A program made the translations under genes and the position numbers. DNA of 64,000 bases from Marilutibacter spongiae (GTDB lineage Bacteria > Pseudomonadota > Gammaproteobacteria > Xanthomonadales > Xanthomonadaceae), in assembly GCF_014145325.1 (NCBI RefSeq), contig NZ_JACHTF010000002.1, positions 1 through 64,000 on the forward strand, in the 5' to 3' direction. This document shows positions 36,038 to 42,672 of this stretch, piece after piece. Under the pieces are notes generated by a model, which was not told where the DNA came from, searched no databases, and saw nothing but the letters and a program-made list of their open reading frames with translations. Each line of letters opens with the position of its first letter. Positions within the stretch are counted from its first letter, which is position 1.

Positions 36038-38380
36038 TCAGAACGGATCGCGTCCGCGCAGCAACGAGCCGAAGGTCAGGTAGAAGGCGCTGTGCCCGCT
36101 CTCGGCGTGCCCGTAACCGAGGAAGATCGGACCCAGGAAGGAATCCATGCCGACGAAGAGGCTGCCGGCGCCGATCATGTCGTCGATGGAGACCGCGTCG
36201 CGGTTTTCCCAGTAGCCGCCCCACTCCAGTGAGCCGCCGGCATACAGCGGGAGCGCGAACAGCGTGTCGTCGCGCGAGAGCTTGCGATAGTAGACGACCC
36301 GACCCAGCGCGATCTGCGGCGCGAAGATGGCCTGTTCGGGGTAGCCGGAGAGGTTGCCCAGGCCGCCGAGGAAGCCATAGGTGGCCAGCAGGTTCTCGCC
36401 GCCCGTGGACGAAGTCAGGCGTGCGCCGAAGAGCAGGTTGTCCTTGCCGCGCGACCACGCGGCATCCCATCTCAGGCGCGTCGAACTGGCGTCGTCCTCG
36501 CCACCGAGCGTGTCGAGGTACTCGTCGTGCATGATGCCCAGGCGCTGTCCGCGGGTGGGGAAGACCGAGCTGTCGAGGGTGTCGTGGTGCAGCCCGATGC
36601 CGACGCTGGCGAGGCCGCGCGCATAGCCCGAGAACAGGAAGGGATCGCCCACCTGCAGGCCGATGCGCTCCTGGCCGCGGCTGGCCTCCACGCTGAGTTC
36701 CCAGTTCCGCGTCGGCGACCATGCCCAGCCCAGCGAGGCCAGCCACTGGCTGTAGCGGAGCTCGGCGAAGGTGCGGTTGTCGAGGAGGCGAAGCGGCAGG
36801 TTCGTGGCGCGATATTCGACGCCGGCCAGCAGGGACTGGCGGCCTCCGTCGCCGAACGGGTCGACGTACTCGGCGAACAGGTTCTCGACCTGCCCCAGGG
36901 CAGCCCCCAGGACGAGTTCCGCGTCGCCATCCCGGCCCAGTCCGGTGCGGGTGTACTGCGACAGCAGCTGGTAGTTGCTGTCGCCGTCGAAGTCGTCGGA
37001 AAGGCGCAGGCCGAAGTGCAGGAAGCCGGGCCCCCAGCGCTTGTCACGCGGAACGACCACCAGGCCCGCGCGCCCGTCCTCCTCCTCCAGGTGCCATTGC
37101 ACCTTCTCGTAGCGGTTCTCGCCGTAGACGGTGGCGATGTCGCTCTCGACCGCATCGATGTCGATCGGCGCATCGACCATGGGTGCCAGGCGCTCCTCGA
37201 TGTAGTCGCCCGAACGCGTGTCGTCGTTGGGCACGCGTACGAAATCCAGCACTGGCGCGTCGTACTCCATGAGCCGGTGGCGTTGCTGGAACCGGGCGTA
37301 GGCCGTCGCGTCCACGCTGAAGTGCCGGAGCGCGGGCAGCACGGTTTCGGCCGCGGCCTCGCCCGCGCCGACGGCCATGGTCGATCGATGGAAGTCCTCG
37401 CTGCCCAGGTCGCCGAGCTCGGGTTTGACGAGCACGTCCCGCGCCGTCAACGTCGCGATCTGCTGGTCCACCGCCTTCTTCATCAGGATGCTGGCCATCT
37501 GGTGGCTGACCGCGAGCGGTGAATCGAGCTGCTCCTCGCGCATCAGCGGCGCGCCGACCTGCGACACGATCATGCGTTCAGCCCCGAGCTTGCGGGCCTC
37601 GTCGATGGGCACGTTGTCGATCACGCCGCCATCGACCAGCAGGCGGCCGTCGACGTTGATCGGTGCGAACGCGGCCGGTACCGACATGCTGGCGCGGATG
37701 GCGGTGGCCAGGTCGCCGCGGTCGAAGACGACCTTCTCGCCGTTGACGATGTCGGTGGCGACGGCGCGGAACGGGATCGGCAGCGCGTCGAAGTCCCTGG
37801 CGCGCCAGGTCGACACCAGCAGCCGGCGCAGCAGCAGCTCCAGCTGCTGTCCCTGGATGATGCCGCGCGGAATGGCGATCCTGCCGTCGTGCACGCCCAG
37901 TTCGACCCCGCCGAGCAGGCGCAGGTCCTCGTGCTTGCGACGCATGCTGCGTTCGTCGCGTGGCGGCCGGTCGCGCAGGACCTGGTTCCAGTCGATGCGG
38001 GTGAGGATCGACTCGATCTCGTCGGCGCCATAGCCCGCCGCGTACAGGCCACCGACCACCGCGCCCATGGAGGTCCCCACGATGCAGTCGACCGGAATGC
38101 GTTCGCGCTCGATGACCTTCAGCAGGCCGATGTGCGCCGCGCCCCGTGCTCCGCCCCCGCCCAGCACCAGGCAGGTACGCGGACGTTCGCGGGCCTGCGT
38201 TGCCTGCGTTGCCTGCGGGGTGGCGGGTCCGGCGGCGAAGGCGCCTGCCGTTGACGCCAACCCGATCAAGAGCGCGGCGAACGCCGCCCAGTGCCGACGG
38301 CGCTTCGCCCCGCGCGCGGTACTGCTGGATGTCCCCACTGCCGTTCGCCCGTCCCCAAGGAAGATGATCGCCCGCGGCAC
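36038..38380 (-). CDS. Patatin-like phospholipase with C-terminal beta-barrel, PlpD type
   Basis: This 780-residue protein has a basic leader and signal segment (AAFAALLIGLASTAGAFAA). The patatin domain has the oxyanion loop GGGGARG (74-80), the nucleophile S104 in GTSMG and the DGG of the catalytic dyad in LLVDGGVIDN. A POTRA-like stretch (DIATVYGENRYEKVQW) then leads to a 16-strand Omp85-type barrel ending in aromatic residues (SAFYLTFGSLL). This is the type Vd autotransporter architecture, in which the barrel presents or secretes the lipase. It converges on ligD. Confidence 0.87.
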   Translation of the reverse strand: MPRAIIFLGDGRTAVGTSSSTARGAKRRRHWAAFAALLIGLASTAGAFAAGPATPQATQATQARERPRTCLVLGGGGARGAAHIGLLKVIERERIPVDCIVGTSMGAVVGGLYAAGYGADEIESILTRIDWNQVLRDRPPRDERSMRRKHEDLRLLGGVELGVHDGRIAIPRGIIQGQQLELLLRRLLVSTWRARDFDALPIPFRAVATDIVNGEKVVFDRGDLATAIRASMSVPAAFAPINVDGRLLVDGGVIDNVPIDEARKLGAERMIVSQVGAPLMREEQLDSPLAVSHQMASILMKKAVDQQIATLTARDVLVKPELGDLGSEDFHRSTMAVGAGEAAAETVLPALRHFSVDATAYARFQQRHRLMEYDAPVLDFVRVPNDDTRSGDYIEERLAPMVDAPIDIDAVESDIATVYGENRYEKVQWHLEEEDGRAGLVVVPRDKRWGPGFLHFGLRLSDDFDGDSNYQLLSQYTRTGLGRDGDAELVLGAALGQVENLFAEYVDPFGDGGRQSLLAGVEYRATNLPLRLLDNRTFAELRYSQWLASLGWAWSPTRNWELSVEASRGQERIGLQVGDPFLFSGYARGLASVGIGLHHDTLDSSVFPTRGQRLGIMHDEYLDTLGGEDDASSTRLRWDAAWSRGKDNLLFGARLTSSTGGENLLATYGFLGGLGNLSGYPEQAIFAPQIALGRVVYYRKLSRDDTLFALPLYAGGSLEWGGYWENRDAVSIDDMIGAGSLFVGMDSFLGPIFLGYGHAESGHSAFYLTFGSLLRGRDPF

Positions 38381-38434: not shown

Positions 38435-39772
38435 TCAGAACGTGATCGGGATGCGCGCGGTCAGGCTGAGGTCGGGGGTGTCGCGGGTGAGGCCGGCGCC
38501 GACGACGACGTTCAGCGACACGTGTTCGTTGTAGCGGTAGGTGCCGCCCAGCAGGAGGGTGCCCAGGTTGAGCCGCACCGAGCCCGGCAGGTCCTCGCCG
38601 TTCTGCTGGGTGCGGTCGACGACGTTGTGGTCGTAGCCGATGCTGATCGAGGCCTTCTCGTTGAGGGCCAGGCCCATGCCCAGGTTGAGGCCGATGATGT
38701 CGCCCGCGTCGATTTCGCCCAGGAACTCGGTCTGGCCGCCCAGCACCGTGCGCGAAACGTTGTCCCGCTTGAGGTTGTGCAGGTAGCTCAGGGTGCCGAA
38801 GAACACCACCGGGTCGGACGGGAACAGCCAGGTGACGCCCGGCTGGATCGCTTCGAAGCCGCTACCGGTGGGCAGGTCCAGCGGCAGGCCGGTGCCCGTC
38901 GCATTGGCGACGCAGCGGGTGACGCAATCGGTCACCACGTCGAACGGGTCGCGCCCGGTACGGCTCTTGTAGCGCAGCCAGCCGATGTAGAACGGCTTGT
39001 CGGCCGCGCCCTGGTTGATCTGGTAGCGCAGGGTCGCTTCGATGTCGCCCATGCCCTTGCCCTGCGCGTTGAACACGTTGTCCTGCGCCGAGCCGGTGAA
39101 GATCTCGCGGCTGACCGTGTCGCTGTGCGCATAGACATAGGGCACCTTGGCCTCGATCTCCATGCGGTTGGTGATCCCGTAGCGGCCGGTGAGCGTGGCG
39201 ACCGTGGTGGTGGTCTTGACCTGGCGCACGTCGATCAGGCCGATCAGGATCGCCGGGATCACCGTATAGCCGACCAGGGCCACGCGGTCGTTGGCGTAGT
39301 AGCCATACTGGACCGAAGGCTCGAGGATGAAGCTGCGGGCCGGGGTCAGCACGCCCGGCTGGTCGAATATCTGCGCCACCTCCGGCGGCCGGGTATCGGC
39401 TTCGGGTGCCTGGCCGACGACCTGCGGTTGCGTGGATGCCAGCGGTTCGGTGGGCGCCGCCGTGCCCTGTGCCTGGATGTCGAACGCGCCGGTCGTCGCG
39501 ATCGCGGCGCCCCCGCGGCCGCGCGCATTGCCGAGGATCTCGTCGTCCAGAGCGCGCTGCAGGGCATCGAGGTTCTGCTGGCGTTGCTGCAGGGCCGCGC
39601 GCATGTCGTTCAGCGCCCGCCGCTCGTCGTTGATCTGCGCCTGCAGGGCTTGCAGGCGCGCGTCGCCGTCGTCCGCCTGCTGCGCCCAGCACATGCCGGG
39701 GATGGCCGGAAGGATCAGGCACGCGATCGTCGCGGCGAGCGGGTGCAGGTTCGAGTGCGATCTGGCTTTCAT
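38435..39772 (-). CDS. Outer-membrane barrel with N-terminal coiled coil, FapF-like
   Basis: This is a 445-residue protein. A signal peptide ending PGMCWAQ is followed by a coiled coil (residues ~38-78: LQALQAQINDERRALNDMRA, QQRQQNLDALQRALDDEILG). A low-complexity Ala/Pro linker then leads to a beta-barrel from ~135 (ILEPSVQYGYYANDRVALVG) ending ARIPITF, a canonical aromatic C-terminus. FapF, the trimeric exporter of functional amyloid, has exactly coiled coil plus barrel. It is last in a five-gene operon with a C39 peptidase. A generic MetA-pathway porin is the alternative. Confidence 0.75.
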   Translation of the reverse strand: MKARSHSNLHPLAATIACLILPAIPGMCWAQQADDGDARLQALQAQINDERRALNDMRAALQQRQQNLDALQRALDDEILGNARGRGGAAIATTGAFDIQAQGTAAPTEPLASTQPQVVGQAPEADTRPPEVAQIFDQPGVLTPARSFILEPSVQYGYYANDRVALVGYTVIPAILIGLIDVRQVKTTTTVATLTGRYGITNRMEIEAKVPYVYAHSDTVSREIFTGSAQDNVFNAQGKGMGDIEATLRYQINQGAADKPFYIGWLRYKSRTGRDPFDVVTDCVTRCVANATGTGLPLDLPTGSGFEAIQPGVTWLFPSDPVVFFGTLSYLHNLKRDNVSRTVLGGQTEFLGEIDAGDIIGLNLGMGLALNEKASISIGYDHNVVDRTQQNGEDLPGSVRLNLGTLLLGGTYRYNEHVSLNVVVGAGLTRDTPDLSLTARIPITF

Positions 39773-39804: not shown

Positions 39805-40311
39805 TCAGCGTCCCAGCGCACCCAGTTGCGCGTCGACGAGGGCGTCGTTGAAGTTGATCGCCTTGTAGATGCCCAGCGTGTCGACGCCGACCTCCAGGCG
39901 CGTCACCGCGCTGATGCTCTCGTCGTCGAGGCTGTTCTGCACGACCAGCGCGCCGGTCGCCGTGCCCGCGACGACCCGGTTGCCCTCGCCCACCTGGACC
40001 AGGAGCCCGCGGTTGAACTCGGCCAGCGCCTGCGCCTGTTCGGCGGTGATGTGGGCGATGTCGGGAATGCGCACGCTCGCCTGGGCGACGAGCAGGCCGT
40101 TGACCCGTACCACGCGCTCGATCCCGAACGACAGCACCGGCCCGCCGGGCAACTGGAAGCCGCCGCGGATGTCGGCCAGTCGATCGACCTCGATGGGCGC
40201 CCATTCCGTGCCCAGGCCGTTGGGCCCGGGTGGCGCGGCCTCCACCGCGGCCGCGTGCAGGATCGCCATCAGGGCGGCGGCCACGAGGACGACATGCAGG
40301 CGCGCGCGCAT
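39805..40311 (-). CDS. Secreted Fap-like accessory protein with double-glycine motif
   Basis: This 168-residue protein has a Sec signal (LHVVLVAAALMAILHAAAVEA). Shortly after lies IEVDRLADIRGG: Ile at -12, Leu at -7, Ile at -4 and Gly-Gly at -2/-1, the consensus of leaders cut by C39 peptidases. The C-terminal half is Asn/Gln/Val-rich (GALVVQNSLDDESISAVTRL, IYKAINFNDALVD), like amyloid-associated FapA/FapE regions. It follows the C39 gene by four bases, so it is a likely substrate. Confidence 0.65.
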   Translation of the reverse strand: MRARLHVVLVAAALMAILHAAAVEAAPPGPNGLGTEWAPIEVDRLADIRGGFQLPGGPVLSFGIERVVRVNGLLVAQASVRIPDIAHITAEQAQALAEFNRGLLVQVGEGNRVVAGTATGALVVQNSLDDESISAVTRLEVGVDTLGIYKAINFNDALVDAQLGALGR

Positions 40312-40314
40312 GGC

Positions 40315-41010
40315 CTAGATGTCCCCGGGACCGCGACGCGGCACGGTCACGTTGCGCAGGCCATCGCGCTGCACGCCGGTGGCCAGGGGCGCGGGCGGCG
40401 CGGTGCGCCAGTCGGCGACCTGGTTGAAGCGCGCCAGCGACCGGTGGCTGTGCACGACGAACAGCACGCGGTTGTCCCAAAGCGCTTCGAATCGCGAGCG
40501 CGGCATCGCGCGCGTGCCGCGCGCGGGATCGCCCAGCAGCACGCGGCCGTTGCGCAGCCCCTTGACCACGACGAAATGCCGGTAGCCGCGATCGTTCAAC
40601 AGCACGATGGCCGGGATCCCCTCCTCCTCCAGTTTCTCGAGCGGCAGCTCGAAGCCGTCGGCCTCGTATCCCATGGTCGCCAGGTAGCGACGCATGTCGA
40701 GAAGCGAGAAGCCCTCGGCCCTGATCTTCTGCTGGTCGCCGTGGGTATACATGCGCACGAACACGTCTTCTTCCGACACCGGGTGTCCGTACTGGAAGGT
40801 GAGCAGCGTCGCGGTCGCCGCGGAACCGCAACTGAAGTCGAACTGCTGGGGCACGGTCGTCTGGAAGCGCGCTTCCTTCAGGCTGGTCACGCGCACGGTG
40901 TAGGCGCCCGCGCCGGGGACGCGGACCTCGGTGGTGGAGGCCATGGCGAGGCCGCTGGCGCCGGCCAGCATCGCGACCAGTGCGCAACATGCGAGCCCGC
41001 GCCGGGTCAT
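40315..41010 (-). CDS. Secreted C39 family cysteine peptidase, FapD-like
   Basis: This 231-residue protein has an N-terminal signal (CCALVAMLAGASGLAMAS). The C39 catalytic set is intact: oxyanion Gln in VPQQFDFSCG, nucleophile C61, H145 in YRHFVVVKG and D161 in LLGDPARG. Unlike bacteriocin exporters, there is no ABC transporter fused to it, so it acts in the periplasm, as FapD is thought to in Pseudomonas amyloid operons. It overlaps the upstream gene by four bases. Both neighbouring small secreted proteins carry GG-type cleavage motifs. Confidence 0.85.
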   Translation of the reverse strand: MTRRGLACCALVAMLAGASGLAMASTTEVRVPGAGAYTVRVTSLKEARFQTTVPQQFDFSCGSAATATLLTFQYGHPVSEEDVFVRMYTHGDQQKIRAEGFSLLDMRRYLATMGYEADGFELPLEKLEEEGIPAIVLLNDRGYRHFVVVKGLRNGRVLLGDPARGTRAMPRSRFEALWDNRVLFVVHSHRSLARFNQVADWRTAPPAPLATGVQRDGLRNVTVPRRGPGDI

Positions 41011-41438
41011 GGCGTCGGGCTCGTGAACTGAACGCTCACGGCGGTGCCCGACTGGATCAGGACATTGCTGCCGCTATTCTGTATGACGGTGTTGATGCCA
41101 CTGGCATGGCCGAAGGCGCCGCCATCGAGCAGGTTGTCGCCGGTGACCACGTGGTCGGCGGTGTTGCCGTCGACGAGCCCGTCGATCAACACGTTGCTCT
41201 CGGCGCCGTCGCCGCCGCGCAGCCCCTCGAGCGCGTCCGCGCCCAGCGGGTGTTGCCAGGCATCGGTGGTGGACGCCGGAGGCGCCGTCGCGGCGTCGAC
41301 CGTGGGCGTTCCAGCAGGGTCGGCAAGTGGGACGAGGGCCACTGGCGGGGGTGCCGAATGGGCGCTGCCCGCCCACGCCAGGCACACGGCCAGTACCAGT
41401 GCCGACGATTCGATCGGTTTGGGTGCGAACATCTGCAT
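41007..41438 (-). CDS. Secreted Fap-like minor subunit with double-glycine motif
   Basis: This 143-residue protein has a signal peptide ending GSAHSA and a Pro/Ala/Thr linker. LGADALEGLRGG follows, with Leu at -12, -7 and -4 before Gly-Gly, a textbook C39 leader motif. The remaining ~65 residues contain repeated Asn/Gly turns and the segment INTVIQNSGSNVLIQSGTA, which resembles the beta-arc repeat of bacterial functional amyloids. It is coupled to the C39 gene by an ATGA overlap. It could be a nucleator or chaperone-type subunit. Confidence 0.65.
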   Translation of the reverse strand: MQMFAPKPIESSALVLAVCLAWAGSAHSAPPPVALVPLADPAGTPTVDAATAPPASTTDAWQHPLGADALEGLRGGDGAESNVLIDGLVDGNTADHVVTGDNLLDGGAFGHASGINTVIQNSGSNVLIQSGTAVSVQFTSPTP

Positions 41439-41571: not shown

Positions 41572-42672
41572 TTACGGGCCGACCGTCAGGTTGGCCTGCA
41601 CGGTGATGCCCTGCTGGATCAGCGAGGCGTGGCCGCTGCTCTGCGCCGCGATCGTGATGCCGGCTGCGTTCTGGCCCACGCTCGTCATGTAGTTCGACGC
41701 ATTGAACGTACCGGCGCTGTTGGCGACCGAGCCGCCGGCACCGCCCGACGCGCCTGCGCCGCCGGCGCCCGCACCGCCCATGCCGTCGCCACCCATGCCA
41801 TCGCCGCCATCGCCGCCGTCGCCGGCGGTGGACGCGACGTTGCCGGCATTGCCGCCGGTGGCGCTGCTGTCGCCGCTGTTCGCGGTGGCCGCGCCGGTCG
41901 AGCCGGCACCGCCGGCACCCGAGCCGCTGCCCATCGCGTCGCCGGTCGAGCCGCCGTCGCCACCATCGCCACCATCGCCCGCGGTGCCGGTGCCCGACCC
42001 GCTGCCGTTGCCGCCGTTGTTGCCCGCCAGGCCAAGGCCCAGTCCGAGGCCGAGGCCTGCCGCGCCATCGCCGCCGTCGCCGCCACCGGCACCATCGCCG
42101 CTGCCGCCGGCACCCAGGCCCCAACCGTCGCCGCCACCGGCGAGGTTCGCCGCGCCCGCGTCGCCGCTCGAGCTGCCGGCGTCACCGCCGCCACCGCCCA
42201 GGGCGATCGAGCCGCCGCCATCCGCGCCGCGCGCGCCGTTGCCGTCGCCGCCATTGCCGCGACCGCCGCTGCCGCTGCCACCGGCGCCGCCGCCACCACC
42301 GTTGGCGTTGCCCCAGTTGCGTGCCGCGTTGCCGATGTCCTGCACGCTGACGCCGGACACGCTGCCATTGAGCGTGGTTTCCGCCACGGCCGTGCTGGTG
42401 TTGAAGGAGTTGTTGAGGCTGGTGGACGCGGTTCCGCCGTTGTTGGCGGCCGCCGTCCCGATGCCGTCGGCGCGGGCCCGGCCGCGGTTGTCGCGGTTGC
42501 TGCCCGCGCTGTTGTCGCTGTTGTCCGAGTTGTCGTTGAGATCGACGTCGATGGCGACCTGGATGTTCTCGCCAGGGCCATTCTCGGTGTTGGTGGCTTG
42601 TGCAAATGCCTGTCCCGTGAGTCCCAGCCCCACCAAGACCGCAGATGCGATCAGAGTCTTTCGAATGCACAT
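41572..42672 (-). CDS. Gly-rich secreted protein, candidate amyloid subunit
   Basis: This is a 366-residue protein with signal peptide VLVGLGLTGQAFAQ. The first ~110 residues are Asn/Asp/Ser-rich (NDNSDNSDNSAGSNRDNRGR). The middle ~200 residues are an irregular Gly/Ala/Asp/Ser repeat region (GGDGGDG, GSGSGAGGAGS) without cysteine. The C-terminus, SVGQNAAGITIAAQ then GHASLIQQGITVQANL, has the N/Q/G pattern of Fap subunits. It is the first gene of the operon and probably the bulk fibre component. A PE_PGRS-like adhesin without amyloid properties is the alternative. Confidence 0.62.
   Translation of the reverse strand: MCIRKTLIASAVLVGLGLTGQAFAQATNTENGPGENIQVAIDVDLNDNSDNSDNSAGSNRDNRGRARADGIGTAAANNGGTASTSLNNSFNTSTAVAETTLNGSVSGVSVQDIGNAARNWGNANGGGGGAGGSGSGGRGNGGDGNGARGADGGGSIALGGGGGDAGSSSGDAGAANLAGGGDGWGLGAGGSGDGAGGGDGGDGAAGLGLGLGLGLAGNNGGNGSGSGTGTAGDGGDGGDGGSTGDAMGSGSGAGGAGSTGAATANSGDSSATGGNAGNVASTAGDGGDGGDGMGGDGMGGAGAGGAGASGGAGGSVANSAGTFNASNYMTSVGQNAAGITIAAQSSGHASLIQQGITVQANLTVGP

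Follow-up and report, generated by a model that had tools for sequence, protein, structure and literature searches.

A soluble C39 peptidase of a Fap-like secretion operon in Marilutibacter spongiae and its predicted double-glycine substrates

In a 64,000-nucleotide stretch of the genome of Marilutibacter spongiae (hereafter the window) we found a Fap-like outer-membrane secretion operon, whose soluble, Sec-exported C39 protein is probably a periplasmic double-glycine peptidase acting on two exported proteins, UP and DN, encoded on either side of it; FapD is likely to play the same part towards FapE. Our best reading of the sequences and predicted models is that, after Sec export, the peptidase would remove a leader from DN, and usually also from UP, before secretion across the outer membrane. 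Periplasmic trimming of Sec-exported subunits by a C39 enzyme had been proposed from the sequence of this window alone (the original prediction), and conservation, gene pairing, the presence of the leader in the FapE family and a model of a read-through chain now speak in its favour.

The operon (42672-38435, minus strand) comprises five co-directional genes, encoding, in order, a Gly-rich subunit, UP, the C39 peptidase, DN and a FapF-like barrel (Table 1). The end of UP and the peptidase gene overlap by 4 bases. The peptidase and DN genes share a reading frame, with just one TAG and one codon between them (window 40309-40317). The ORFs of UP and DN and their double-glycine motifs lie where the original prediction had placed them, and we agree with the Sec signals it assigned to these two proteins and to the peptidase; the signals of all operon products were assigned by eye.

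Table 1. Positions of the operon genes and leader motifs within the window.
Feature	Position	Strand	Basis and characteristics
Gly-rich exported subunit, FapC-like position	41572..42672	-	ORF; Sec signal by eye; no double-glycine leader
UP, small subunit	41007..41438	-	Sec signal 1-29 by eye; variable linker; leader; 67-residue predicted mature part
UP leader motif LGADALEGLRGG, -12 to -1	41211..41246	-	sequence reading and family conservation
C39 peptidase	40315..41010	-	PF03412; Sec signal 1-24 by eye; ABC transporter domains absent
Codon of predicted nucleophile Cys61	40828..40830	-	set completed by Q55, H145 and D161
DN, exported, FapE position	39805..40311	-	Sec signal 1-26 by eye; leader; 117-residue predicted mature part
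DN leader motif IEVDRLADIRGG, -12 to -1	40159..40194	-	sequence, 34-row alignment, predicted models
FapF-like outer-membrane barrel, N-terminal coiled coil	38435..39772	-	NF058560 FapF match
Leader-like stretch LDDEILGNARGR in the FapF-like protein, coiled coil/barrel junction	39515..39550	-	weaker, lineage-dependent

The peptidase (231 aa) matches PF03412 with 71.6 bits (gathering cut-off 22) and has no other Pfam domain. Its residues Q55, C61, H145 and D161, in which the original prediction saw a complete active-site set, are kept in all 191 distinct C39 sequences of the loci described below (141/141 GG-type and 50/50 FapE-type). A genome-wide search returned a single PF03412 domain, that of this operon's peptidase; the genome therefore encodes no C39-bearing ABC exporter, and for exporters of this kind the predicted absence of an ABC exporter holds. 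Among the window neighbours, none of which resembles an ABC exporter, Pfam recognized a patatin-like protein and an MgsA-type ATPase. The patatin-like phospholipase (window 36038-38380) is located beside the operon on the same strand and shows a weak C-terminal match of the Omp85 type. Two further neighbouring ORFs look by eye like a DNA ligase D and a fluoride channel.

The exported proteins had been described as Fap-like subunits, and relatedness to Fap is evident. The barrel matches the FapF model NF058560 with 152.2 bits and, although this is below the cut-off of 700, the E value of 1.9e-44 makes it clearly a relative of FapF; the peptidase scores 142.8 bits against the FapD model NF058616 (cut-off 330). 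However, both scores are far below the cut-offs and DN has no match to the FapE model NF058559, so the operon represents a sister system and not Fap in the strict sense.

The motif of UP (LGADALEGLRGG) has L-12, L-7, L-4 and GG, and that of DN (IEVDRLADIRGG) I-12, L-7, I-4 and GG; the double-glycine leader consensus is quoted as LSX2ELX2IXGG (PMC3897388). The original prediction had named conservation among homologous loci as one of its checks, and the alignment bears it out: in 50/50 loci of the family (including the window, L001), whose C39 proteins are 67-100% identical, both UP and DN retain L-7, R-3, G-2 and G-1. Position -12 of UP is V, L, I or M in the same 50 loci, and the linker preceding its motif varies in length and sequence. 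In one of these loci (L036) the DN motif reads VAFDRLETSRGG. A strict form of the motif, [VILMA]x4[LM]x3RGG, occurred 18 times in the 715,194 residues of opposite-strand ORFs (at least 70 aa) of the 210 loci analysed, from which about 0.008 occurrences are expected within the 311 residues of UP and DN. The presence of the motif pair thus far exceeds chance.

The survey covered (i) 297 family genomes, from whose matches a subset of 50 high-identity and 20 low-identity loci was fetched, (ii) 369 class genomes searched with the FapD model, none of which passed its cut-off, (iii) 398 phylum genomes searched with a C39 alignment, and (iv) the best 80 of at least 589 confirmed places in named genomes. 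The resulting set consists of 210 Pseudomonadota loci with one C39 gene each, and it contains repeats (the window recurs as L096 and L181, and L013 as L182; several loci from named genomes belong to species already represented in the set). Profiles built only from DN residues after the site, with 13 seeds selected for carrying the site, matched DN in 208 of the 210 loci (repeats included); L086 was missed by the profiles, yet shows RGG, and L100 has an in-frame stop within its C39 gene and no DN was found there. In another, incomplete genome (G291, contig 1, 3466685-3467373) the C39 match falls into two adjoining pieces, possibly a pseudogene or an assembly error.

These profiles sort the DN proteins into two families, which we call GG-type and FapE-type. 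The latter name is anchored on NCBIfam scores: L192 is above both cut-offs (FapD 441.7 bits, cut-off 330; FapE 346.1 bits, cut-off 250) and L072 below both (281.2 and 96.5 bits, respectively). A site was accepted when it had G at -2, one of G, R or K at -1 and one of a small set at -3, and every DN examined contained one. Among the distinct rows with a located site (rows being merged only when the site and the 60 residues after it were identical), GG-type DN read RGG in 133/133 and FapE-type DN [RSTNQH]G[RK] in 51/51. Seven rows left out of the count due to a poor profile start all show RGG. In a 34-row DN alignment L-7, R-3, G-2 and G-1 are invariant. Position -4 is less constrained, since 28 of the 133 GG-type proteins have there a residue other than M, L, I, V or Y (11 A, 5 Q and 12 others), even E or N in a few cases (L123, L168, L176). 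Of the 51 FapE-type proteins, all have L or M at -7, 47 have M, L or I at -4, 38 have R-3 and 33 have E-8. The system to which the window operon belongs was seen in Lysobacteraceae, Rhodanobacteraceae, Burkholderiaceae, Comamonadaceae, Oxalobacteraceae, Zoogloeaceae and further genomes of the same class.

The residue at -1 follows the phylogeny of the enzyme. In a C39 tree (82 of the 191 rows) a single branch with an SH-aLRT of 100 separates the two DN types, and in all four genomes from which two C39 systems were fetched (L013/L075, L026/L064, L035/L068 and L040/L052) each peptidase is accompanied by its own code. The GG-type and FapE-type DN profiles align to each other over the leader and first strands only (probability 86.8, E 4.3e-06). 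We claim no C39 residue as the determinant of G versus R/K at -1, because the many columns that separate the clades are confounded with one deep branch of the tree. In all 20 FapE-type loci available with 5-6 kb flanks, the leader-bearing protein is encoded downstream of the peptidase. With a looser pattern (GA allowed), ORFs further downstream matched in 6 of these 20 loci, and upstream ORFs likewise in 6; the latter include RGR in L057 and RGG in L055, both more than 5 kb from the peptidase. The other four upstream hits (L056, L058, L066 and L067) lie about 3 kb from the peptidase; their leader-like stretches end in SGA or RGA and may be genuine leaders or belong to an amyloid repeat. A DN ORF of Cupriavidus sp. 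YR651 (L157, 4004-5929) contains three tandem leaders, each with RGGF, in front of one mature domain, a layout reminiscent of leader duplication.

Taken together, the sequences point to DN as the constant candidate substrate of the C39 enzyme. FapE-type proteins have the same leader with R or K at -1, and the original prediction, which saw in UP and DN substrates for a FapD-type enzyme, therefore carries over with one changed residue. Known leaders of C39 domains typically end in GG, GA or GS (PMC6363468), which makes R or K unexpected for cleavage at this position. FapD may accept R or K there, cut one residue away, or only bind at this place. PMC5557850 singles out FapE as the only Fap protein whose N-terminal processing is complete. 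The stretch from which no FapE peptides were obtained spans about 70 residues, however, and is thus longer than the about 39 residues whose removal the site in L192 FapE predicts, which counts against this site. The invariance of Arg-3 in the 133 GG-type DN proteins suggests an acidic partner in the periplasmic enzymes, given that LahT is tolerant at this position.

The status of UP is less uniform. Profiles of its post-site part located UP directly upstream of the peptidase in 145/149 GG-type loci versus 0/50 FapE-type loci. Among 137 distinct UP proteins GG is kept in 121 (105 RGG, two RGG without a hydrophobic residue at -12 as read by eye, 13 SGG and one CGG) and changed in 16 (RAK, SGR, RGT, RGK and others, e.g. 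RGM in L088), which come from Massilia, Rugamonas, Schlegelella and other genomes of the class. The DN proteins of these 16 loci all retain RGG, hence UP cannot be a double-glycine substrate everywhere, and the claim that both proteins are substrates stands firmer for DN than for UP. It could be argued that DN is the sole substrate, and that the UP motif is the remnant of an ancestral leader, uncut in many lineages. The invariance of GG in DN, as opposed to UP, and the FapE-type loci having a DN leader and no UP homologue directly upstream of the peptidase would agree with this. Against it, UP of the window's own family preserves L-7, R-3, G-2 and G-1 in every one of 50 loci despite the variable linker, and we consider restriction to DN unlikely. 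Processing of DN, and usually also of UP, remains the preferred reading.

In an hhalign comparison the post-site part of UP is similar to the C-terminus of the Gly-rich subunit (probability 96.7, E 3.2e-10), with which it has a Q/N-rich unit in common, so that UP seems to be a smaller relative of that main subunit; its mature part also matches weakly the DN C-terminus (hhalign 66.7). A comparable relation is that of FapB to FapC (PMC6173800). Neither UP nor the Gly-rich protein has a match in Pfam or NCBIfam. Relatives of the Gly-rich subunit were recognized in 149 GG-type loci (duplicates included), and in 97/100 of the loci for which a flank of at least 4 kb was requested. The main subunit has no leader: only one of these 149 ORFs contains the motif, a 206-aa ORF of L158 bearing the UP motif of that locus.

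A leader-like motif is also present in some FapF-like proteins, in the linker between coiled coil and barrel. The full motif was found in 34 of 96 distinct GG-type proteins versus 1.0% of shuffled regions, an excess that does not count independent events since the rows are mutually related. The 96 linkers comprise 7 with RGG, 27 with RG[RKAT], 24 with a degenerate motif and 38 with none, and the motif occurs in 2/37 FapE-type linkers. We therefore reject this linker as a universal substrate; in some lineages only, the motif agrees with the published proposal of FapF as a further FapD target. Several FapE-type loci (in the range L051-L068) with [STN]G[RK] in DN have RGRG at the end of the FapF-like coiled coil.

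These linkers bear on another explanation, in which the leader is a docking signal and the C39 protein a chaperone or an escort to the channel, similarly to the C39-like domains of some type I systems, with proteolysis taking place elsewhere (e.g. in the FapF linker). The leader-like linker stretches would fit such a role, as would the R or K at -1 of FapE-type proteins, unusual for C39 cleavage, and the UP proteins that have lost the glycines yet kept L-7. However, the catalytic residues are kept throughout the 191 enzymes, and both glycines, needless for docking alone, in every one of the 133 GG-type DN proteins. Moreover, FapD is periplasmic, FapC is no longer secreted when FapD carries the C38A substitution, and FapE undergoes N-terminal processing (PMC5557850). 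We regard a purely docking function as distinctly improbable.

The preferred reading, cleavage at the leader, is also consistent with predicted structures. An artificial C39-DN read-through chain was modelled with AlphaFold2 (one model, six fused alignment rows; mean pLDDT 70.5, pTM 0.58). Its C39 part has the fold of the LahT and PCAT1 peptidase domains (Foldseek probability 1.00 to 7n87 and 6mpz). The leader reaches pLDDT values of 78 (residues 241-250) and 88 (251-260, corresponding to DN -10 to -1, with GG at 259-260), compared with 41 for the ten residues before it and 47 for the ten after. It forms a helix from -10 to -5, followed by bridge residues at -3, -1 and +1. The model thus shows, with fair confidence, a helical leader segment that runs into RGG. 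The leader bound in the LahT crystal structure is similar, with a helix spanning -11 to -4 and a linear stretch at -3 to -1 (PMC6363468). From this likeness we infer that the leader would occupy the C39 active site. In DN modelled alone (mean pLDDT 79.6) a helix is already present at residues 17-23 (block mean 75), residues 25-28, including GG, are below 50, and the first strand begins 9 residues after GG; a structural search with this model gave no match (best E 0.46).

The short distance between GG and the first strand, together with the conserved residues that come close after the site in FapE-type proteins, could mean that the motifs belong to the protein fold itself, as a turn leading into that strand, and are unconnected with the C39 gene. 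This is extremely improbable, considering that UP has the same motif ahead of an otherwise different part of 63-77 residues, that the -1 residue tracks the C39 clade, that GG is of low confidence in the model of DN alone, and that one DN ORF contains three tandem leaders.

Under the cleavage reading, all operon products would cross the inner membrane via Sec. The hydrophobic side of the leader (-12, -7 and -4) would dock in the C39 groove, the segment of Arg-3 and the two glycines would take an extended form in the active site, and cleavage by Cys61 after Gly-1 would follow, freeing a 117-residue DN and a 67-residue UP for export via the FapF-like channel. The leader may keep the subunits inactive or hand them to the channel. 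FapD most likely recognizes the same leader, with Arg or Lys at -1, in FapE. A wider proposal, which we advance tentatively, is that periplasmic C39 enzymes form their own branch of double-glycine peptidases with a two-letter code (RGG, or [RSTNQH]G[RK] in the FapD clade), and that they trim Sec-exported subunits and, in some lineages, the plug linker of FapF-type proteins, these cuts jointly licensing amyloid secretion, with FapE being the FapD substrate, cut at the leader.

Of the systems to which the operon can be compared, the putative pilus system Fil has a C39 peptidase and a barrel that the window proteins match with NCBIfam models (FilB 123.2 bits, FilC 38 bits). The scores are, however, far below the cut-offs (475 for FilB, NF050078, and 630 for FilC). 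Our literature search on the Fil peptidase found nothing; the FilB of PMC11784438, which methylates flagellin, is a different protein.

Peptidase-containing ABC transporters (PCATs, e.g. ComA, LahT and PCAT1) share with the window system the C39 fold, the leader consensus and, in the model, the shape of the leader as bound to LahT. In contrast to PCATs, where C39 is fused to an ABC transporter, the window enzyme is devoid of transporter domains and its signal would direct it through Sec, so that it would act on the other side of the inner membrane; its candidate substrates carry Sec signals as well. A further difference concerns -3, where GG-type DN have an invariant Arg, whereas LahT accepted Tyr, Phe, Lys and Glu (PMC6363468). 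Double-glycine processing would thereby be extended to the periplasm.

The closest resemblance is to the Fap system of Pseudomonas (FapABCDEF), in which a soluble, Sec-exported C39 peptidase (FapD) likewise adjoins FapE and a FapF-type coiled-coil barrel, and the leader is likewise found in the protein downstream of the peptidase. The two differ in the -1 residue (Arg or Lys in the FapE-type leader, Gly in DN of the window) and in the UP gene directly upstream of the peptidase, specific to GG-type loci. FapD and FapF have been considered likely members of larger families (PMC3792158). The target of FapD, the essential protease of Pseudomonas amyloid secretion, was called unclear in 2017, when the Fap proteins were said to lack canonical C39 sequences and FapF was given as a second candidate (PMC5557850); the FapD substrate was described as undetermined in PMC6173800 and its role as "a little unclear" in PMC7764130, and in December 2025 FapD was thought to process FapE and FapF (PMC12822426). 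FapE as a FapD substrate was thus already suspected, judging by the statements in PMC5557850 and PMC12822426. No paper naming this leader was found in the open-access literature searched, and as far as that literature shows, the new elements are the leader and its site, a sister family whose glycines are intact, and a second candidate substrate. It is because the glycines are intact in the sister family that the leader becomes obvious there; once recognized, it can also be identified in FapE. Leader-bearing candidate subunits are thereby named for this Fap-related system, and the exact residues of the leader and an exact predicted N-terminus are defined.
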